Shown here: positions 52,969 to 64,000 of the stretch, in pieces
Layout: each line of letters opens with the position of its first letter
Position numbering within the stretch: position 1 is the stretch's first letter
Notes under the pieces: model-generated
Told to the model about the DNA's origin: nothing
Seen by the model: only the letters and a program-made list of their open reading frames with translations
Database searches by the model: none
From: Pseudomonas sp. R5-89-07
Lineage (GTDB): Bacteria > Pseudomonadota > Gammaproteobacteria > Pseudomonadales > Pseudomonadaceae
DNA length: 64,000 nt
Reading direction: 5' to 3'
Assembly (NCBI RefSeq): GCF_003851685.1
Contig: NZ_CP027727.1
Location: 5,890,001-5,954,000, forward strand
Program-made: the position numbers and the translations under genes

Positions 52969-53105
52969 GATCCTACTGAATAAAGTCTGTCGGATCGAGC
53001 CCAGCAATTACGGGGGCTAGCCGATGGGTTTATCAGGAATAAAGTCTGTCGCAACACCATTTTTATGAGGTGGTGTCGTTAGACCTACTAAATAAAGTCT
53101 GTCGG
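52968..53105. repeat. Left end of a Tn7-like transposon, three TnsB-type binding sites
   Basis: AATAAAGTCTGTCGG or AATAAAGTCTGTCGC occurs three times in direct orientation, starting at 52979, 53038 and 53091 (spacings 59 and 53). The first and third copies share a CCTACT upstream. Tn7 end repeats contain the motif ACAATAAAGTCTTAAACTG, and its end reaches its first repeat after 11 bases, which here would put the terminus at TGATCC (52968). Three separated sites is the left-end pattern of Tn7. A TnsC-like gene at the right edge supports this. Confidence 0.65.
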
Positions 53106-53760
53106 AAGCATGCAAGCTATTGATTTCAGATAGTTTTTTATCTAAAACCGCAAATTCGCCGAGCGCAAGCACAATGGAGCTCCGACGATCGAGATTCCGT
53201 CGCGGCGTCGGATGTCCGATGGAAAAACCACTCCTTCCGAAAGTAACGCACCTTTATAAAGCGCACAGCCAACACGGTCCAGGTGAGCACCTTTCAGGTC
53301 ATATGAGAGGTACGCCAATGCTGGGTTAGGAACGGTCCAGTTATTTCCGCTGATGGGACAGTGCGATCATCTACTGGAGAGGAATCACATCGAATGTTGA
53401 TCACCCTCAATTCTGTAATCGAACAGCAGTCATCTTAGCCCTTTGCTGCTCGCTGACCACAGACTGCTAATCTATTCGAGTATGGATTTGGGTTTAGAAC
53501 TGAGCCCGCTCGTTGTCGCGGTCGGGTACCGTACCCCAATTTGGAGGTGCGTCAGCCTTGAGCTGGCAAGCGGATAAACTCGGCATAGACCTCAACTAGA
53601 GGACGGCGGATGCAAACCCGCCTCTTACTCAATCTGCTATTTGGGCATCAGCAAGGTGATTATCCAAGCCAAACCGCAAGAGGTAGCGCTTGCTGTCATT
53701 TTGCCGATATTATGCCGACACACCAGCAAAATGCCCTCAAAATGACAGCGAGTATCGTCC
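53106..53760. other. Gene-poor stretch inside the transposon left end
   Basis: No convincing gene. Short frames at 53120 and 53610 lack ribosome sites and codon bias. Small hairpins are present (GGGTACCGTACCC near 53526; GGCGGATGCAAACCCGCC near 53606). The last part holds the inverted repeat described next. Confidence 0.5.
53692..53749. promoter_or_regulatory. Inverted repeat operator before the RHH-HTH regulator
   Basis: GCTGTCATTTTG (53692-53703) and CAAAATGACAGC (53738-53749) are perfect inverted copies; a third half-site GCAAAATG lies at 53726-53733. It ends 12 bases before the regulator's start codon, so autoregulation is likely. Confidence 0.6.
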
Positions 53761-54657: not shown

Positions 54658-54754
54658 GAAAGGCTCAGCTGCTGGGCATTGGCATGGCCCTTAACCCCCG
54701 GCTGAATGCCCCAGTTAGGAATGAGGCATGTCTTGGGAATAATAGGGAGCCAAG

Positions 54755-56017
54755 ATGAATCTTTGTGAGTGTTTTAGGTGTATCACCTGCGGGACTGAAA
54801 TCGACTGTCGGATAGGGATGTCAAATCGTGACGTCCAACCCTTCCAGTTCGCCTGCCCCAAATGTGAGGAAAGGATTTCATTTGTATTCGGGCAAGCTGA
54901 CGCCGAACTGCAGGGGGCTGAGAAGGTCGAGGGTTTTGAGGCTCCATTCAAGGGTGAAAAGCCTTTCGTAGACCTCCACCTAGATTTTCCTGTCTATGTT
55001 GGGAAGTACAAGATGGGGATGACTACGTTTCTTCGTGTGACTCAAGAGCTCGGTATGGGAGCGTACTCACATCTTAATCAGCGACTGCATATGCTGAATT
55101 ACCTCCATCCAGTTCAACGAGATCTGTTCAGCCTCATTACCCAGTACAAAAGAGGTGATCTTGATAGTTTTGAAAAAGTTTGTGCAAGGATTCCAGGAGT
55201 AACTTTAACATCCAGAAAGAAGCAAGATGTTTTGGCAGCACTGTATTCTGCGACTTCAATAATGTCCTCGCCATTTACAATACATGAGCATAACGCTGAG
55301 ATCAGTGATGTGGCTCCTAAAATTTATTACTGGCTACTTGACAATCACCGCGACAAAACCATTGAGTTCATCGACAGTATTTTGAGCAATGGCTTCCTTA
55401 AGAATTTACACAACGACTGCCTGTCTTTATATCCAAAATTAGTTTCGATGGACCTCGCGTTTCGGCCCGCCCTCTTCTATGACTACGCAGATACAGAAGA
55501 GTTGGGTGATATTCCAGCCAGGATGTCGACTGCAGACTTTGAAACTTGCAATAATTTTTACAAAGACCTTGCTGAAGTATTCTCACGTCAAATAACACTT
55601 ATTGCTGGTATCAACAATCTACTGAAACGTGGTGACTGCAACCAGTTCGAACCATCTTTAAAGCATACCAAAAAGGGTATTAGGCCCGGGCTGGAAAGCC
55701 TTGACGCCTTTGCCAACGTCGACCTGGGCAACAAAATCGATTTTATAGACAAATCATTTTATGCAATAGACCTCGATGCCATCGATAACAAACTTAGGAA
55801 TGCGATCGCTCACTACAAGTATGACTACAAGGAATCAAGTCAACGCATCACGTATTATCCGAGCAAGGAAGGCATGAGCCGGGAGAAGTGCTATGAAATC
55901 CAATTCATGAGTTTCATTAGAAAGTCACTGCTCCTATTCAGAGAGGTTCATAGTGTGAACCACATTATTAAGGCGACGCTTTTTCTATGTGTCTTGGTAT
56001 TGAAAAAGGACATATAA
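54755..56017 (+). CDS. Zinc-ribbon and HEPN-like hypothetical protein (candidate defence effector)
   Basis: 420 residues. The N-terminus has a zinc ribbon with C9-x2-C12 and C34-x2-C37 (FRCITCGT, FACPKCEE). A long helical middle follows. Near the C-terminus LRNAIAHYKYDY (R348-x4-H353) matches the R-x4-6-H signature of HEPN RNases, and VFSRQITLIAGINNLLKRGD may belong to the same helical bundle. HEPN proteins in cargo are often abortive RNases. AT-richer than its neighbours. No partner gene is evident. GGGAG five bases before the ATG. I do not know the family. Confidence 0.55.
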   Translation: MNLCECFRCITCGTEIDCRIGMSNRDVQPFQFACPKCEERISFVFGQADAELQGAEKVEGFEAPFKGEKPFVDLHLDFPVYVGKYKMGMTTFLRVTQELGMGAYSHLNQRLHMLNYLHPVQRDLFSLITQYKRGDLDSFEKVCARIPGVTLTSRKKQDVLAALYSATSIMSSPFTIHEHNAEISDVAPKIYYWLLDNHRDKTIEFIDSILSNGFLKNLHNDCLSLYPKLVSMDLAFRPALFYDYADTEELGDIPARMSTADFETCNNFYKDLAEVFSRQITLIAGINNLLKRGDCNQFEPSLKHTKKGIRPGLESLDAFANVDLGNKIDFIDKSFYAIDLDAIDNKLRNAIAHYKYDYKESSQRITYYPSKEGMSREKCYEIQFMSFIRKSLLLFREVHSVNHIIKATLFLCVLVLKKDI

Positions 56018-56176
56018 AAGGCAGGAGGTTATTTCGCATTACTGGCGAGAGTATAGCTCACTGTCGTAAGGGGTAGGTCGTGGGTAGCCGTCTCGTGCTA
56101 CGCCCACGCCATATGACGCGAAACTGGCCCTGATCAAACCGATGAGGGCTGGCCCACGAAACTCACGAATGCACCT

Positions 56177-56207
56177 CCAACCAAGCGTGGCTTGGTTGGC
56201 CCCTTTT
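56177..56207 (+). terminator. Strong hairpin after the zinc-ribbon/HEPN gene
   Basis: CCAACCAAGC-GTG-GCTTGGTTGG followed by CCCCTTTTCG, 160 bases past the stop. It can terminate rightward transcription and lies 42 bases past the end of the convergent helicase gene. Weaker hairpins occur between 56080 and 56150 (CGTGGGTAGC ... GCTACGCCCACG). Confidence 0.55.
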
Positions 56208-56248
56208 CGATTCCCCTCAACAACTACCGGATTGCCCTAAGTCATGAC

Positions 56249-57679
56249 TTATGCTGGCAAGTGTCGAACTGTCCCGATGATGGTGAGAGATTTCGCTCCT
56301 CGGGTCATCGCGACGTACAAATCCTTCGCATCAAGCGAGTCGGCATCAAGAATGACGGCGTGGTCATACTCAAGGCCTTTAACCAGCAACGTAGTACCAA
56401 TCAGCTTGCGGTGGTTGATCGGTCGGCCCGAATGCCTCATCTCACGCTGATAAAGAATGCCAGCCTCAACGAGCGTCGTGGCTTGACCATCAATATGAAT
56501 CTTGAGCACGTTCAAGAAACGATAGAGTAAGTCACGGCGATAGGCTGATGTTTCGGGGTTGCTCTTCAACGTTTCGAAGAAGGCCTTAAGATGGCTGCTG
56601 GACGGGTCAGTCAGATAGTCATTTGCAGCTTGAAGGACCAAAGGGTATTTAGTGGTCCTGCGCAGCTTGGTTACTTCGCCTCGCCTAGTTCCGGCCGTCA
56701 ACGCACTGGGTACACCAGTGAGGCATTTCATCGCAAATTTCACTACAAGGAGAAACCCCGCCTGAACAGTCTTGACGGCAACAAGCTTTTTGATAAACGA
56801 ATGCAGATCTTTACCTTCGATTTCCTCGATTGAGGAAAAACGTCCGGCCATGGTTTTCGCCAAGAGGTGAGTTTTATTCTTGGACTGGCTGTCCCCGCCG
56901 TGCAGAGCGATGACGCTCTCATTATTGTTCAGCATCCCACAAAGCGCCGTGTACTGTTTAGCGGCGAGGTACTCGGGCTGGGTGTAGGTACGAATCACGC
57001 TCGGTGGTAGCTGGGCCAGCAAATCAATCTTTTGGCCTAGCTCGATCTTTCGCCTCACATTTTTGAGCCATTCGCCAAGTTCCGGACTCTTCGCCTTGAC
57101 CCACCGCCAAGGGACCTCCAGCTGTCCCAAGCAATCAAATTTGGGGTAGACGCTGACTTCCCAATCAACGGGCTTGCCATCGTCAAAATCAAATATGGAT
57201 TGGAGGGGGTCTCCCAACAGTCGGCTTGGAAGAAACTCTGCCAGGTTGCAGACGAGATCATGTTGTACGTCGGAGCAGTCCTGGTACTCGTCGACGTAGA
57301 GACCTATGTAGCTGGACGACACGGCCTCACGAATGAACCTCTTTCCGAGCAAATGGGAGCAGCACTCGTACAACTTATTCCACTGCTTGCTGGTCGGGTT
57401 TTCAATTTTCCAACCAGATGCTTTCGGGTACGCCAGACAGAGTCGAAGTGCCCAGCTAGCAATCGTATCGACCTGGAACTGGGAAGCACGAACGCCCAAG
57501 TCCGCCATTTTGGTTTTTATCGAATTCACGCCGGCAAAAGTGTGCGTCAGGATAAGCTGCCGGCCACCTGACGCTCGCACCGCCATTGCGATGAGATGAG
57601 TTTTTCCAAACCCCGCAGGCGCGATTACATAACCTTTGGAGGTACAGTCGTTGAGCTTGATTGCGAGGTCTTCAGACAC
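56249..57679 (-). CDS. UvrD-like superfamily 1 helicase, GajB-type
   Basis: 476 residues. Walker A APAGFGKTH (about 20-28), a second motif LILTHTFAGVNSIKTKM, Walker B YIGLYVDEYQDCSDVQHDLV, motif III LLGDPLQSIFDF, and late motifs KGLEYDHAVIL and LYVAMTRGAKSL. It is shorter than UvrD (no 1B/2B bulk), matching Gabija GajB (about 490 residues). Its start overlaps the end of the OLD nuclease gene by eight bases, so the two are translationally coupled. In Gabija, GajB senses or works with nucleotide depletion and stimulates the GajA nuclease. Confidence 0.75.
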   Translation of the reverse strand: MSEDLAIKLNDCTSKGYVIAPAGFGKTHLIAMAVRASGGRQLILTHTFAGVNSIKTKMADLGVRASQFQVDTIASWALRLCLAYPKASGWKIENPTSKQWNKLYECCSHLLGKRFIREAVSSSYIGLYVDEYQDCSDVQHDLVCNLAEFLPSRLLGDPLQSIFDFDDGKPVDWEVSVYPKFDCLGQLEVPWRWVKAKSPELGEWLKNVRRKIELGQKIDLLAQLPPSVIRTYTQPEYLAAKQYTALCGMLNNNESVIALHGGDSQSKNKTHLLAKTMAGRFSSIEEIEGKDLHSFIKKLVAVKTVQAGFLLVVKFAMKCLTGVPSALTAGTRRGEVTKLRRTTKYPLVLQAANDYLTDPSSSHLKAFFETLKSNPETSAYRRDLLYRFLNVLKIHIDGQATTLVEAGILYQREMRHSGRPINHRKLIGTTLLVKGLEYDHAVILDADSLDAKDLYVAMTRGAKSLTIIGTVRHLPA

Positions 57680-59378
57680 GCTTCGCCCACTCCCAAAGCC
57701 TTCCCAACTCTAAGGCGAGATTTGTTTTGCCGAATCCGGGATCGTTGAAAGCGGTACTCACCGCCTTGAACCACAGGTCGCCTCTAGTAGTATCCTTGAA
57801 CCATCCCGCGCTCTTTGCTGCAGCACCAATTGCAGTCCGCAGCTTGGGGCTATCCCGCCACTCGCTGATGTCAGGGTCCAAAACGTCCTGATACTGCGAT
57901 CGCACTTGATCGTATACCGGGTAGAAGAGTTCGACTTGGGCGAGCGTCAAGCTGGCAACTACGGAAGCCCAGGGCAGATCCACAAAAGCCCGCTCCTCAA
58001 GCGAAAGTTTGTCGTTCCAGACGTAGGTGGGAATTCCTATTGCAACAAGCCCAGCAGCATCAGCGGCTGAGAACTGCTTCTCGGCATCGCCATCAGCTAG
58101 TGCCGACACGTCATAGCCAAGCTTTTTAAAGGCAATAGCCATGCCCTTCACTTTGCTGGCTCCCTTAGCGTCTAGCAACGCCACACCGTGATATGACAAT
58201 GGATCTTGCCCATTTTCGAGTTGGTGATCGTCTAAGCCCCTTATGAAACCTACCTCGGTAGCGCCTTCACATACGACAACCTTTTTGGCCAAGAAAGCTT
58301 CAGCGCTAGAGCGAATCTTACCCTGAACCTCATGCTCTTCGAGGCCCTTCTCGGCAGCGGAGACGATCGTCACGACCCCGCCCTTGCTGTGGACGATATG
58401 AAGGTCCTGCACCGTGAGCTCGCGAAGCACCATGGGCGAATGGGTAGTTAGGAAATACTGCCCGCGTTTGTCCTCCCTGATGTGCTTGATGAGACGCGTA
58501 ATGCGATGGGGCTCGAGGCCGAACTCCAACTCATCGAACAAGGTGATATGGCCATCCTCCAGGCCCGCTTTCTGGATTCCACACTGAAGCATCCGGCGAG
58601 ATCCCAGACCTAACTGGCGCAATGGGATTTCGCCGTCATGCAGGGAAAGACCGCCGACTTTCAGGTTGATGGACGCCAAGTCAAGATGGGCCTTATAGGC
58701 ATCAAGTACAGGGACACCTAAGAGCTTCGCAATCTCTTGCGATTTGGTTGCTGCAGTGTCGAAGTTTGTCAGGGAGACAGCCCGGTCGACATCGAGCGAA
58801 CTCCTGGCAGTCCTCGATGCATTGGCCAATAACTCGCTCAAGCTCTGCGCCGCAGTAAGCTTGGCAAGTGCAGTTCCGTTTGCCCAGGAAAGCTCTCGTT
58901 CGCTGAAAACGCCGATGAGGCCAACCCCGACCTTGTTTCTATCTGCCTGTTTAAAAGGCACCCCGTCAGGGTTGCGATCGCACACCACAGCCCATTTCGG
59001 CTCCAAGTCCTTCTCAACGGTTAGCCGGGCGGTCAATACGCTTTCCAGATGATCATCTGGCTCATCAAGCAGCTTTTGAGCTGCCGCATCCCAACCCCGG
59101 AGGTACAACCCATATTTATTAAGGGCAGAAAAGTCTGCGGCCAAATGCCCGATCGTAATCTCGATGATGATGGGGTCAGCGATTTTGCACTGGTAAAAAT
59201 CTGAGTCGCTGAGGGCCAGATTCCACTGGGGATGGAATGTGTAACGGATGGCCTCCAAAATTGTGGACTTGGAGGAGTCACCTTTACCTATGAGACAAAA
59301 AATGTCAGCGGTTGGCACATTCCAATCAAGCGTTTTCACTCCGCGGAAGTTCTTGATCACGATCTTTCTGATTTTCAC
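57672..59378 (-). CDS. OLD-family ATP-dependent endonuclease, GajA-type
   Basis: 568 residues (GajA of Gabija is about 578). N-terminal ABC-type ATPase: MKIRKIVIKNFRGVKTLDW, Walker A GKGDSSKST (31-39, with Ser in place of the usual second Gly), signature-like LGSRRMLQCGIQ, Walker B ITLFDELEFGLEPH, H-loop FLTTHSPMVLREL. C-terminal Toprim: VVVCEGATEVGFIRGL (Glu) and VSALADGDAE (D-x-D). GTG start with AAGGA 10 bases upstream. Likely nicks phage or plasmid DNA. Preceded by a structured segment with a small ORF. Confidence 0.75.
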   Translation of the reverse strand: MKIRKIVIKNFRGVKTLDWNVPTADIFCLIGKGDSSKSTILEAIRYTFHPQWNLALSDSDFYQCKIADPIIIEITIGHLAADFSALNKYGLYLRGWDAAAQKLLDEPDDHLESVLTARLTVEKDLEPKWAVVCDRNPDGVPFKQADRNKVGVGLIGVFSERELSWANGTALAKLTAAQSLSELLANASRTARSSLDVDRAVSLTNFDTAATKSQEIAKLLGVPVLDAYKAHLDLASINLKVGGLSLHDGEIPLRQLGLGSRRMLQCGIQKAGLEDGHITLFDELEFGLEPHRITRLIKHIREDKRGQYFLTTHSPMVLRELTVQDLHIVHSKGGVVTIVSAAEKGLEEHEVQGKIRSSAEAFLAKKVVVCEGATEVGFIRGLDDHQLENGQDPLSYHGVALLDAKGASKVKGMAIAFKKLGYDVSALADGDAEKQFSAADAAGLVAIGIPTYVWNDKLSLEERAFVDLPWASVVASLTLAQVELFYPVYDQVRSQYQDVLDPDISEWRDSPKLRTAIGAAAKSAGWFKDTTRGDLWFKAVSTAFNDPGFGKTNLALELGRLWEWAKRV

Positions 59379-59399
59379 CAGCCAGCATCCTTCTGAACG

Positions 59400-59489
59400 T
59401 CATCTATGAGTAACGGCGAAACGCAGTTGTAGCGCCTCACCTGGCTCCCAGGAATGCAGCGGGAGTGGCCATTCGCCGTTACTCATCAT
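59400..59489 (-). CDS. Candidate 29-residue ORF upstream of the OLD nuclease gene
   Basis: Reads MMSNGEWPLPLHS then WEPGEALQLRFAVTHR, with AGGA seven bases before the ATG and its TGA 21 bases before the GTG of the nuclease gene. The ATG and the stop fall in the two arms of the inverted repeat 59406-59486. It could be a leader peptide coupling translation, or chance. No homology is recognised. Confidence 0.3.
   Translation of the reverse strand: MMSNGEWPLPLHSWEPGEALQLRFAVTHR
59406..59486. repeat. Perfect 15-base inverted repeat with structured loop between the nuclease genes
   Basis: ATGAGTAACGGCGAA (59406-59420) and TTCGCCGTTACTCAT (59472-59486), 51 bases apart. The loop contains further pairing (CCTGG-CTC-CCAGG; CTCCC...GGGAG). 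In RNA this makes a long stem directly before the OLD nuclease gene. It may be an operator, a leader, or an RNA component. Bases 59490-59639 show nothing more. Confidence 0.6.
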
Positions 59490-59639
59490 AGATACATCCT
59501 GCGAGTCGGGGGAACTGATCGTAATAATTCGTTTGGGATCGTGTTAGCTCGCATGCTTTACCGACACCAGCTCTATGTATCTGAATTTCTTGAGCCGCTT
59601 TCGTTGCATCAAGCTCGGCTTGGAGCGTCCTCGCAATTC

Positions 59640-61250
59640 CTAAGCAGGTGAAGACCTCTGTTCCACGCGGGCTCGCTTTCTTTCTCGTTCGGCTTTCCTT
59701 GCAGCTCGGTCCCTGCTCAACTCAACCTCTCTCATGGGATGGTTGATGAAGTGCTGTTCGTAGGTACGGATCAGACCAGCATCGTGACTTGCCATAACCT
59801 GCTCGAAAACGTAATCCGCGTTCCTGGCGACGATTTCGTACTTATCGGTTTCAAGGTTTCTATTTGAGATCAGTAACAGCGCCTCGGGAGTGAAATTTCC
59901 GCTGCTCCAGATTTCAAACCGCTGCGGCAGGTATCCCCATTCGGAATGATGCTTAGCCACTTCGCGGAGTACGGGAATGCGCTTGTCGAGCCATTTGGCG
60001 ACTTCTGCGTCATCTACATTGCCCAAGGGATGTACTCCCTTGCACTCGATGAACACCACGTCTTGATACCTCCTGACTACCAAGACGTCAATTTCGGCCT
60101 GCCGGCCAAGGCTGTCCTTAACCTTCCTGTTCACTTCAGGATCGCCGCCCGGGAACGTGGACTTGGCAATGTGAGCAACTGCAAACTCAAACAAACTTCC
60201 TCGCAAAGTAGACCCGGCGCCCTCTATCCGCGAAAGCACGTTGAAAACCTGATCCAGTGACTCAGGGCTGTCCAAGAGCTTGGCCGTGTTTTCGAGTAAT
60301 GAGCACAGGCTCTTCAGAGCTCTGGCTACCTCCAGGCCGAAAAGGCTTTCGGTAGTGGCAGGAATGATGCCCTCTGCTTTTAAGAGCGAGAACGCTTCGG
60401 TGGAAAACTCTTCAGCTACAAAAACCTGGAGACAGCGGCTTACCTTTGAAAGGCTGCGCAGCGTCACGCATTTTTTGACGAATGCACTCAGTTCCTCCGC
60501 AGTTACCCGTCCATTCAAAGCAATGTCGCAGACAAAAAATCCGCCCTTAACGCCGGCAGCCTCAGAATACGAACGCATCGGAAACAGAAATGATGGACCC
60601 GCCATATCCCACTGAAACGTACCTACCTGCGGCATCTTCTCTAGCCCATCGTCCTCACGGGTTTTGACGGCCTCGTAGCTCACCAGCCCCAATTTTCGTG
60701 CCCAGTCCTTTACCGCGATCAGCGCCAGTCGCTCTGCAATGTTTCGAGCCTTGAGTTTGGCCAGCGTGATCCCGTCCTGGAGGGGCATTTCTTGATCGCA
60801 TCTCACGACGCATGTATCCCCTCCCGGCAGTGCTACCTCCTTGACCAGACTCGCGCTGATCAACCGTTCAAGCAGACTTTCGGCCGAGACGTGTTTCAAC
60901 TGAGCTACCGGCGCTCCACAGGCGATAAGGAAATGAGACCGCAGCATGAAGTTAGAGCGCATTTTCAAGGCTTGGAGGGCTGAGTAGTAGGCGCTATTCG
61001 TCTGCTGAAGAGCATCAATCAGATTGGAAAAAAATTTCCGCGAGCCGTAATCGGATCGTAGATACACAAAGCGGGCACGGTGAGGAAAGATTAGGTGGCT
61101 CAGCTTTCTCATATCTTCACAGCCCCGCTCGACCCGCTTGCGAGCGGCCGTAGGAGCCAGGTTGTATTGAGATTCCAGGATCTTCGCGAGCTCACTGCTC
61201 AGCATCGGGCCGTTCTTAGCCAGAATTTTCGCTACCGCATCCTTCGCCAT
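59640..61250 (-). CDS. Winged-helix plus PD-(D/E)XK-like nuclease, hypothetical
   Basis: 536 residues. The N-terminus (MAKDAVAKILAKNGPMLSSELAKILESQYNLAPTAARKRVERG) looks like a winged helix. At about residues 380-405 DSLGRQAEIDVLVVRRYQDVVFIECKG has the D...E-x-K spacing of restriction-type nucleases (EIDVLVV, FIECKG). The C-terminal tail is very basic (SRDRAARKAERERKRARVEQR). Unknown family. Encoded upstream of, and in the same direction as, the GajA-like gene, 261 bases apart, so may be part of the same defence system or a separate one. Confidence 0.6.
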   Translation of the reverse strand: MAKDAVAKILAKNGPMLSSELAKILESQYNLAPTAARKRVERGCEDMRKLSHLIFPHRARFVYLRSDYGSRKFFSNLIDALQQTNSAYYSALQALKMRSNFMLRSHFLIACGAPVAQLKHVSAESLLERLISASLVKEVALPGGDTCVVRCDQEMPLQDGITLAKLKARNIAERLALIAVKDWARKLGLVSYEAVKTREDDGLEKMPQVGTFQWDMAGPSFLFPMRSYSEAAGVKGGFFVCDIALNGRVTAEELSAFVKKCVTLRSLSKVSRCLQVFVAEEFSTEAFSLLKAEGIIPATTESLFGLEVARALKSLCSLLENTAKLLDSPESLDQVFNVLSRIEGAGSTLRGSLFEFAVAHIAKSTFPGGDPEVNRKVKDSLGRQAEIDVLVVRRYQDVVFIECKGVHPLGNVDDAEVAKWLDKRIPVLREVAKHHSEWGYLPQRFEIWSSGNFTPEALLLISNRNLETDKYEIVARNADYVFEQVMASHDAGLIRTYEQHFINHPMREVELSRDRAARKAERERKRARVEQRSSPA

Positions 61251-61605
61251 TTCGCCTCCGTAATGCCTATGTCACACAGCGCTATTTATATAACTTGTAA
61301 ACAAGTGCCGTTCTGCTTGCTGTTTGTATTCTATGAAAAGCCCAATTTACAAGGTCTTCCTGGAACCGAGTCAGCGGAAAACCAGAAAAATGTCACAATA
61401 GTCGAATCTTGGGCGCCTGCAAGGTGTTGCTTTAGACGCCCGGAGCCAGGTGAAGGGCCGACATGTGGCCCGATGATCAATGTCGCCTTTCTATCGAGGG
61501 AGCAAGATGCAGATCGGCCTGTTTTGTTCTTAGACCAACCCTAGAGAGCTAAACTGAAGATCTGCGGAGCAGGAGCTGCTGCGCGATGATTCAGAGGGCC
61601 TCAAT
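61251..61605. other. Intergenic stretch between nuclease gene and BPSL0761 gene
   Basis: Mostly AT-rich promoter-like DNA with no convincing gene. It contains the palindrome at 61293-61306 described next; past it I see nothing notable. Confidence 0.5.
61293..61306 (-). promoter_or_regulatory. Promoter-overlapping palindrome of the nuclease gene
   Basis: ACTTGTAAACAAGT is a perfect 6+2+6 palindrome 43 bases before the nuclease start. On the minus strand a TATATAAAT -10 like element lies directly next to it, so a repressor bound here would block the promoter. Confidence 0.5.
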
Positions 61606-61893
61606 ATGACCATGCCGAATGAACGTACCCGGGCTGTCATCCAAACGGGAGAGTTTCTGCTCGAGCTATCCCGAGATTCCTCGTTACCAGAACGGATACG
61701 CCGTGACGCCAAGTTTCTCCTGCGTCATTACCCAGACCAGTTCCAGATGCTCCTTGCTGGACGGATTGAAGAATCATCAGATTCTGACGTATCCCCATCA
61801 GGTCCAGTCTTCAGTTCCTCAATCGAGAGCAGCTATCACTCCCCGATCGTTTACGCTGCAGACGCGAAAAAGTCAGATGAACAAATGGGATAG
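61606..61893 (+). CDS. BPSL0761-family protein
   Basis: 95 residues: MTMPNERTRAVIQTGEFLLE then SRDSSLPERIRRDAKFLLRHYP. The PxERTRA...FL..LS.D..LP..IRR.A..LLRHYP pattern defines the small BPSL0761 family, common in mobile islands. Function unknown. Overlaps the following sirtuin pseudogene by 17 bases. Confidence 0.7.
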   Translation: MTMPNERTRAVIQTGEFLLELSRDSSLPERIRRDAKFLLRHYPDQFQMLLAGRIEESSDSDVSPSGPVFSSSIESSYHSPIVYAADAKKSDEQMG

Positions 61894-62639
61894 AGCCGTC
61901 GTAGCTTTGGCCGTCGCTCGAAAAGTCGTGTTTTTCGCCGGCGCAGGCATCTCTGCTGCAAGTGGAATTCCAACATTTCGCGACAAACTCATAGGCCTTT
62001 GGGAGAAACACGACCCCGAAAGATTGGAAACGGTACAGGCTTTTCGGGAGAACCCTCAACTGGTTTGGGGCTGGTATCTGTGGCGGCGCTCCCAAGCTGG
62101 CCAGGCCCAACCAAACGCCGCTCATCTTTCGATTAGTCGACTGGCGGCCACCGGCAAACAGGTTTCGGTCATAACTCAGAATATCGATGACCTGCACGAG
62201 CGCGCGGGGTCTCAGAACGTCGTGCATTTGCACGGCAGCTTGATGAATCCGATCTGTTTTGCCTGCTAGCGTCCGGCGGTAATCACAACTGATCAGCTTC
62301 AGGTTTGTGCAGAAGGAGAATGGGTAGAGCCGCCCCCGGTGCACACGGTGCAATGGGAAACTCCGACCTGGAATTGTGTGGTTTGGAGAGGATCTGCCTG
62401 CTGGAGCCTGGAAAGCAGCTATGGCCGCCGTCAGGAATTGCGACGCCCTGATCTCCGTGGGGACTTCAGGAGTCGTCAGGCCTGCGGCGGATATTCCTGA
62501 AATCGCACTGTCATCTGGCGCGACAGTTATCCACGTCAACATTGCAGACGTTTGCCTGAGGTCCCCAAATGAATTGATGCTGATAGGCGCGGCCGCGCAG
62601 GTGTTGCCTGAACTATTGCAGGCGACACCCTCGAGATAA
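61877..62639 (+). pseudogene. Broken sirtuin (CobB/SIR2-type NAD-dependent deacylase)
   Basis: The N-terminal half from ATG 61877 (VVFFAGAGISAASGIPTFRD, TQNIDDLHERAGS, VVHLHGSLMNPICFAC) ends at TAG 62267-62269, where relatives have Gln (CAG). The remainder continues as RPAVITTDQLQVCAEGEWVEPP, then a run of C near 62333 (5 C where 4 restore frame) shifts the frame; after removing one C the reading is RCTRC...NGKLRPGIVWFGEDLP, VGTSGVV, ending PSR at 62639. The Zn cysteines and NAD motifs are recognisable. It thus carries one nonsense and one +1 frameshift. A sequencing error is possible for the latter. Confidence 0.75.
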
Positions 62640-62683: not shown

Positions 62684-64000
62684 TTACTTTGCAGGCCCTC
62701 GCGGCTTTGGCGCCCCTTTGGATTCGAATAGCAGTCGGCTGTACGCATCCTCCAAGCCCTCCCGAGTTTGCTTGGGTAAGGCTGGTTTTTTTTCACGCAC
62801 GGGCTTCGAAGACGGATTGGAAGGTGAACCTGGCGGATGGAGCTGTTCGAAAGTCTTACGCTCCTCGGCTGTCAGGGATGAAACAAAAACCTTCTCGCTC
62901 ACCCGTGCAGCTCGATCGTCCTTGGTGAAGCTCAAGACGTTGGAAGGCAACGGTACCGGGAACGGACAACGGAGGTCAGGCCTGGCTCCGGTTTTATTCT
63001 TATGAATGCTGAGGCGAGCTAGCTCCTCGATATCGTCCCTACTGCTGGAGTACGAGGCTGAAAGGTAAGCATTGTTGACGTCCTCCAAAGTAATCGTATG
63101 GCGACGGGCCGCACGGGCTTCGAGATACGCCACCTTGATCAGTTGAACCGCCAGACGCTTTATACCGAACGTCCAGCGATACAGCTCATGTACAAGGGCG
63201 GCCGGATCTGCGGATACGCGTCGTCCACTCACCCGGATGCATTCTCGAACATATTCCTCCCAAGCTTTCGAGTCAGGATGGTCCGGCAGCATGACGCGGA
63301 GGTCGGATAGAAGCCGTTGCTTGTCCTCACTGTTTCTTGTCAGCAGTTTGTGGCCCAAGCTGTAGTTCGCCACATAGATCATCGGAATCCCCAGCCCGGC
63401 CACGGTGAGGAGAATATCCGTGACCCGGGCTACGCCTTGACCAGTGCTCTGATGCTGCATCTCTTCGAGCATCATTAGTGATACACCGTCACGATTGACC
63501 CTACGCCGGCACTCCGTCAGCAGCTTTGATGTGTTCGCTCTAACTCCTGCCGCGTCGCCGCCGAGGAAGTCTTCCAACAACTGCCTGCCGCCAGCCTTCC
63601 CCCTTGCGCTGGCGTACCAGTACGAGATTAAGGTATGCGGTTCATGGTAATGAGCCGATGCATAAGGAGCAGGTCCAGGCATTACCTTCATCAGCGCTCT
63701 AATAGTTTGGCTCTTCCCAATGCCAGCAAGGCCGGTAAGGCAAGTAGGGAACGCCTCCTCCTCAGGGGGGTGATACAGCCGCCGCTGATATTGCTGGTCA
63801 GTGGAAAAGCTCTCGGCCGAAAAGCTGCGCGCACGGTCAACGCTGTCTTTGATGAAGTCCAAAGAAAACTGGTTGGGAAGGAAAATCGTCTTCAGGGCCT
63901 CCGACAAACGCTCAGCGGCCAATGCGGGGCTCAACTCCTCAAGACCGGTCACCGGATCAGGATGCACTGTAACCAACCGCCGGATATCAGCCAGCGTGTC
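62684..64000 (-). CDS. TnsC/TniB-like transposition AAA+ ATPase, cut off at the right edge
   Basis: At least 438 residues; the frame is open to base 64000 (…DTLADIRRLVTVHPDPVTG), so the start is outside. Walker A CLTGLAGIGKSQT, Walker B SLMMLEEMQHQ, sensor-like VANYSLGHKLLTRN, then a lid domain (WTFGIKRLAVQLIKVAYLEARAARRHTITLEDV) and a basic Pro-rich tail (PKQTREGLEDAYSRLLFESKG). This matches TnsC of Tn7-like transposons, the regulator between target selector and TnsAB. tnsB and tnsA should lie further right. No tniQ/tnsD is seen downstream in this window. Confidence 0.7.
   Translation of the reverse strand, partial: DTLADIRRLVTVHPDPVTGLEELSPALAAERLSEALKTIFLPNQFSLDFIKDSVDRARSFSAESFSTDQQYQRRLYHPPEEEAFPTCLTGLAGIGKSQTIRALMKVMPGPAPYASAHYHEPHTLISYWYASARGKAGGRQLLEDFLGGDAAGVRANTSKLLTECRRRVNRDGVSLMMLEEMQHQSTGQGVARVTDILLTVAGLGIPMIYVANYSLGHKLLTRNSEDKQRLLSDLRVMLPDHPDSKAWEEYVRECIRVSGRRVSADPAALVHELYRWTFGIKRLAVQLIKVAYLEARAARRHTITLEDVNNAYLSASYSSSRDDIEELARLSIHKNKTGARPDLRCPFPVPLPSNVLSFTKDDRAARVSEKVFVSSLTAEERKTFEQLHPPGSPSNPSSKPVREKKPALPKQTREGLEDAYSRLLFESKGAPKPRGPAK

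Follow-up and report, generated by a model that had tools for sequence, protein, structure and literature searches.

A predicted nuclease gene that is not a fixed part of Gabija shares a Tn7-like element with a Gabija gene pair in Pseudomonas sp. R5-89-07

Gabija is described as a system of two proteins, GajA and GajB, which form a 4:4 complex (PMC10681800). According to the mutants described for GajA, residues E379, D511, and K541 are required for cutting, and H320 is involved in nucleotide inhibition (PMC8136825). OLD/Gabija is also known as cargo of Tn7-like transposons, with 338 transposons given in Table 1 of Benler et al. 2021 (PMC8649781). Here we analyze a stretch of 64,000 nucleotides from Pseudomonas sp. 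R5-89-07 (contig NZ_CP027727.1, positions 5,890,001 to 5,954,000), referred to as the window, in which a GajA-GajB pair lies on the same strand as a gene encoding a 536-amino acid protein of a family without a name, termed P3. P3 is not a fixed part of Gabija. We consider it probable that P3 is a separately mobile, stand-alone defense gene, likely DNA-cutting, which often shares islands with Gabija. We established directly the gene identities, the ends of the element carrying the genes, the junction between the GajAB and P3 modules, the distribution of P3 in the loci examined, and the absence of co-diversification of P3 and GajA beyond near-copies.

GajA (57672..59378, minus strand, 568 amino acids) is an OLD-type ATPase-TOPRIM protein, and GajB (56249..57679, minus strand, 476 amino acids) is UvrD-like. 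Their genes follow one another in the order GajA then GajB and overlap by 8 nucleotides (57672-57679). GajA scored above the Pfam cut-offs of both AAA_15 (63.2 bits) and OLD-like TOPRIM (33.8 bits) and matched the PADLOC GajA model PDLC04168 with 668 bits over residues 1-566. Similarly, GajB scored above the cut-off of Pfam UvrD-helicase (36.5 bits) and matched the PADLOC GajB model PDLC04173 with 540 bits over residues 9-474. These near-full-length matches bear out the Gabija identity that a first-pass annotation had given to the pair of OLD/Toprim and UvrD-like genes, and its three open reading frames of 476, 568, and 536 residues, all on the minus strand, were recovered. By comparison to the solved Bacillus cereus proteins, both window proteins are distant (26 bits for GajA and 24 bits for GajB, phmmer). 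In the weak 26-bit alignment, K37, H313, and E371 of the window protein are positioned opposite K35, H320, and E379 of the solved GajA, and D511 and K541 of B. cereus GajA fall beyond its range. The TOPRIM residues E371, D429, and D431 are invariant across 14 diverse GajA proteins. Judged from its sequence, the window GajAB is a complete, ordinary Gabija gene pair: It shares with the PDLC04168/PDLC04173 type the near-full-length matches, the overlapping GajA-GajB order, and the alignable catalytic positions, but differs in its remoteness from the B. cereus proteins and in the presence of the unrelated mobile gene P3 upstream.

P3 (59640..61250, minus strand) was characterized from its open reading frame, invariant residues, AlphaFold2 models, and fold matches. 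The models have a winged-helix-like N terminus and a PD-(D/E)XK fold at residues 341-496, and the predicted domains are an N-terminal winged helix (about residues 1-65), a PD-(D/E)XK-like middle domain (about 172-308), and a canonical PD-(D/E)XK C-terminal domain (about 341-496). Residues E355, D388, E402, and K404 of the C-terminal domain and E173, D215, D242, and K260 of the middle domain are invariant in 68 aligned sequences. Given the predicted fold together with the E/D/ExK residues, we assign the C-terminal domain to the PD-(D/E)XK superfamily. The winged helix and the PD-(D/E)XK nuclease that the first-pass annotation had proposed for this protein are thus upheld as predictions.

In the releases of Pfam and NCBIfam that were scanned, P3 reached no curated cut-off. 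NERD (PF08378) from Pfam matched weakly over P3 residues 351-422, with 16.0 bits against a curated cut-off of 22.1. The PF08378 tag was present on 3/120 P3 relatives among those listed, and some plasmid-borne relatives are annotated as "NERD domain-containing protein," but the window P3 itself stays below the cut-off. Matches to PADLOC models were weak, a sequence search of the PDB returned a single row (E = 0.93), and the top Foldseek matches among viral models were short and of nuclease type. Domains of P3 resemble in fold the PD-(D/E)XK nucleases AF1548 (1y88), NucS/EndoMS, MspJI/AspBHI, and Card1/Can2. Among the matches listed, however, these cover single domains and none spans the winged helix together with two nuclease-like folds; the structural aligner compared Foldseek's own candidates, and a better whole-chain relative may exist. 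In the literature searched by listings, with preprints (bioRxiv) and most subscription journals outside that search, we recognized no paper naming the P3 family or a third Gabija gene.

The end of P3 and the start of GajA are separated by 261 bp (59379..59639, minus strand), with P3 upstream of GajA. In four other genomes (G031, G292, G119, and G299), GajAB DNA is 84-87% conserved over 56209-59558 without P3 DNA; the conserved part includes at most about 180 bp of the DNA ahead of GajA and stops at 59498-59558. Conversely, P3 DNA is 78% conserved in G053 over 59670-61317 without GajAB DNA (blastn in both cases). With the conserved GajAB DNA reaching to about 59558 and that of P3 starting at about 59670, the junction of the two modules lies within 59558-59670. 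The 67 bp immediately upstream of P3 (61251..61317, minus strand), which are conserved along with P3 in another genome (match L059, window 59670-61317), are a possible promoter region; a promoter scan returned 0 sites. Among the regions compared, both modules occur together only in G341, as one block (54692-61490) of 99% identity. Nine GajA genes (one partial) of at least 70% identity were present in 398 same-genus genomes. P3 lies beside two of these nine, namely in the window genome (G000) and in its near-copy G341, and six of the nine are without P3.

A genome scan confirmed 82 P3 relatives, of which the best 80 were kept, corresponding to 79 distinct loci. Flanks were examined up to 10 kb on each side; 31 of the 79 loci had less than 9 kb on one side, and the remaining 48, in which each flank reaches 9 kb or more, make up the complete-flank subset. 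The P3 frame was shorter than 480 amino acids in eight of the 79. P3 is rare, being present in 2/398 Pseudomonadota genomes, one of them the window's own. Within the flanks examined, Gabija was near P3 in 16/79 loci and not near it in 63/79, counting L122 (GajB alone at a contig edge) and L113 (broken GajA) as positive and excluding L075, whose weak match does not pass PADLOC Gabija. Among complete-flank loci, Gabija was near P3 in 13/48, and in 35/48 there was none within about 10 kb. For eight same-genus P3s covering most of the query, Gabija was within 10 kb in three (G000, G341, and G219). Among plasmids, 357 records out of 72,556 contained a P3 relative, and 193 of these 357 are typed as conjugative. 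The GajAB pair was absent from all 19 plasmid P3 regions examined (3.6-10 kb requested per side, less at record ends, and some regions closely related); in L157, a single UvrD-type gene is present but GajA is not. Phage records contained no P3 relatives (0/50,697), which is uninformative either way, and three stretches of viral contigs matched a pattern, none of which proved to be a relative. On the 3.6-kb plasmid L068, a P3 relative is the sole listed gene apart from replication genes, and a P3 relative was also observed within a conjugation gene cluster.

The first-pass annotation had left open whether the extra gene is a third component, a regulator, or an independent nuclease. With no Gabija in the flanks examined at 63/79 P3 loci (35/48 with complete flanks), no GajAB pair in any of the 19 plasmid regions, and no P3 at 6/9 close GajAB pairs, the nuclease gene is, as far as Gabija is concerned, alone in most cases. 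The evidence favors an independent nuclease over a third component or a regulator. A fixed third Gabija gene is ruled out by this distribution, by the module junction, and by the absence of co-diversification beyond near-copies: The Mantel correlation between P3 and GajA identities was r = 0.10 (p = 0.20, 12 loci) after removal of two near-copies.

To assess the proximity of P3 to Gabija, we used as a matched control 40 of 41 Cap4-nuclease loci above the cut-off (one with a broken gene, one with a cut flank), from Pseudomonas only, with 9.6-kb flanks and the same hidden Markov models; P3 and control sets differ in taxa, and the control is a single family from one genus. Matches to GajA alone or to GajB alone were not counted in either set; these concern L164, L165, L173, L187, L193, and L199 among the control loci and L075 and L122 among the P3 loci. 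A GajAB pair was within 10 kb of P3 in 15/79 loci and of Cap4 in 4/40 (p = 0.29); for complete flanks the counts were 13/48 and 4/39 (p = 0.06), or 11/46 (p = 0.15) when near-copies were counted once. Closeness to Gabija by itself is therefore not clearly special to P3. Each of the four control loci has one or more genes intervening between Cap4 and Gabija. An earlier Cap4_nuclease comparison (1/51 within 10 kb, p = 0.0025) was discarded and replaced by the matched control; it was biased because its Gabija places had been found with the window GajA, so that other subfamilies, for example that of G219, were missed. Among 117 other immediate neighbors (at least 150 amino acids) at the 63 non-Gabija loci, no PADLOC model had more than three members among the matches listed. 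For 60 further genes (at least 400 amino acids, within 5 kb), the matches listed included LmuB and mad8 models up to three times and type I restriction once. Both tallies count models rather than systems and comprise the first 25 rows each. AbiE clusters, scanned by one member per cluster, were near 5/79 P3 loci.

Several observations weigh against a gene that is independent of Gabija. In 10 of the 79 loci (L098, L110, L114, L120, L122, L126, L131, L133, L143, and L144), P3 is immediately preceded by GajB on the same strand, with a gap of 167-355 bp. As read from a quick P3 tree, these ten loci occupy seven places, which are separated by P3s without adjacent Gabija, although losses could account for some of the latter; among the labeled rows, the well-supported branches require four or more changes. 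Where Gabija is an immediate neighbor, the order is GajA-GajB-P3 in 10/11 loci and in 7/8 lineages, with L113 convergent, whereas the upstream same-strand position makes up 32% of slots otherwise (p = 0.0001, or about 0.002 by lineage). Immediate adjacency was observed in 11/79 P3 loci versus 0/40 Cap4 loci (p = 0.015; 8/76 by lineage, p = 0.049), and with complete flanks in 9/48 versus 0/39 (p = 0.004; 7/46 when near-copies were treated as one, p = 0.014). Gabija was the commonest defense neighbor noticed (16/79, against five for AbiE), the Mantel correlation with near-copies kept was r = 0.70 (p = 0.0006, 14 loci), and in G292 a diverged P3 relic of 58 residues (38% identity) occupies the same slot beside GajAB. 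This repeated same-strand order leads us to reject the simplest form of the idea that P3 and Gabija are chance neighbors. It also keeps in play a role for P3 as an optional third Gabija component, since a position directly after GajB in ten loci is unlikely by chance. Such a helper nuclease would serve many Gabija subfamilies, likely by cutting or degrading DNA nicked by GajA. In agreement with this breadth, the best PADLOC GajA models near P3 are seven different ones, two of them closely related, a tally that rests on ten loci: PDLC04168 in the window and L143, 00099 in L110, L114, and L118, 00073 in L120, 00092 in L121, 00093 in L098, the related 00095 in L095, and 00101 in G219. We nevertheless regard a helper role as unlikely, given the 35 of 48 complete-flank loci without Gabija within about 10 kb, the six of nine close GajAB pairs without P3, and the lack of co-diversification beyond near-copies. 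In the window, moreover, P3 precedes GajA and a module junction lies between them, and for these reasons the window is not the best example of the GajA-GajB-P3 arrangement. The adjacency control is also weak, as Cap4 genes usually reside in operons of their own and the control loci come from one genus. As to conservation of P3 next to GajAB in other genomes, which the first-pass annotation had singled out for checking, P3 lies directly after GajB in a minority of the loci examined, and the majority are without Gabija.

A variant that we hold to be quite unlikely is that P3 acts as a portable "GajC," an add-on with two nuclease domains that was recruited repeatedly behind GajB by very different Gabija subfamilies and also works alone on plasmids; in this case P3 would produce double-strand breaks from DNA that GajA has nicked or marked. 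We consider it improbable that P3 is a gene of plasmids and other mobile elements, acting in competition, exclusion, or maintenance without any anti-phage role, and sharing islands with Gabija merely as mobile cargo. The 357 plasmid records, 193 of them typed as conjugative, the occurrence of P3 relatives as the cargo carried by a 3.6-kb plasmid and within a cluster of conjugation genes, and a proximity to Gabija within 10 kb that is not clearly above the control are all consistent with such a gene, but chromosomal P3 has other defense genes nearby, and its order behind GajB is fixed. A role of P3 as a transcriptional regulator of GajAB, its nuclease fold being dead, would account for the predicted N-terminal winged helix and for the location of P3 upstream of GajA in the window. 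This is highly improbable, however, with E355, D388, E402, and K404 invariant in 68 sequences, with P3 occurring mostly without Gabija, and with P3 downstream of GajB in the ten adjacent loci. P3 is either a widespread defense gene without a name or an optional module of Gabija, for which two proteins are described (PMC10681800): The gene for this predicted nuclease is located repeatedly directly behind GajB, yet a member of the same family also lives alone on a 3.6-kb plasmid.

For P3 as a stand-alone defense gene, which is the reading we prefer, the following course of events can be proposed. By analogy with the published B. cereus system, GajA and GajB would form the known complex and would cut or nick invading DNA once phage replication lowers nucleotide levels. 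P3 may bind DNA through its N-terminal winged helix and cleave it at the predicted C-terminal PD-(D/E)XK site (E355, D388, E402, and K404). The middle domain, with its PD-(D/E)XK-like fold, may provide another cutting site, which could allow a single chain to break both strands; alternatively, it may merely hold DNA. The position of P3 behind GajB in other lineages could then reflect the preferred co-carriage of two complementary defenses, perhaps with read-through from the Gabija operon into P3.

The first-pass annotation had placed the genes inside a mobile element, which we identify as a Tn7-like element with both ends located. Across the 6-Mb genome, the 14-base repeat AATAAAGTCTGTCG is present in exactly five perfect copies. 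The three at 52979, 53038, and 53091 mark the left end (52979..53104, plus strand), and two inverted copies mark the right end (minus strand) beyond the window, at window coordinates 82241 and 82261 (G000 5972241 and 5972261). The repeats delimit an element of about 29.3 kb, from about 52973 to 82280 in window coordinates. A TnsC-like AAA ATPase gene (62684..64000, minus strand, running on to 64036; AAA match below the cut-off) is followed outside the window by a 677-amino acid gene in the TnsB position, by a gene that matches TnsA weakly, and by a TnsD/TniQ gene with scores above the cut-offs (TnsD 118 bits, TniQ 44.9 bits). The gene in the TnsB position had no match in the databases scanned. 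The TnsD/TniQ gene, the TnsC-like ATPase, and the repeated end sites in inverted orientation identify the element as a Tn7-like transposon, and GajAB and P3 are both cargo of it. Gabija is common to this element and to the Tn7-like defense cargo of PMC8649781, where, in the part of that paper covered here, P3 is not mentioned. In the same-genus genome G341, the same ends enclose an 11.1-kb stretch with GajAB and P3, in which relatives of the three genes in tns positions were not found.

The 14-base repeat also marks the ends of this Tn7-like family in several same-genus genomes, with further sites in L154, L051 (937-1061 and 12006-12039), L055 (3025-3150), and L052 (15714-15839). Within the window element, a Sir2/CobB-type gene (61619-62639) is broken into two frames; this region is 90.5% identical in G299, where it adjoins the same TnsC-like gene. 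About 165 bp at 53371-53536 match the 3' end of the subtilase gene that precedes GajAB in G299 and are likely a relic of older cargo. A relative of that subtilase gene is present in G292 together with AAA and AbiEi-like genes. A gene of 420 amino acids (54755-56017), convergent with GajB and without any curated match above the cut-off, is linked to the same GajAB in G341 and, in two pieces, in G292.

Other neighbors of P3 recur elsewhere. Four enterobacterial plasmids (L007, L066, L067, and L069) have in common a block of a HEPN-type gene, a 259-amino acid gene, the P3 relative, and a DUF4238 gene, some of which are shortened in L066 and L069. In three genomes of the same genus, an unnamed protein of 257-258 amino acids (L060:8607-9380, L061:8230-9006, and L053:11827-12603) adjoins P3 or a relic of it. 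One Alkalimonas genome contains three identical P3 copies (L107, L108, and L109), each with the same 1,098-amino acid neighbor, which makes up a multicopy mobile block.

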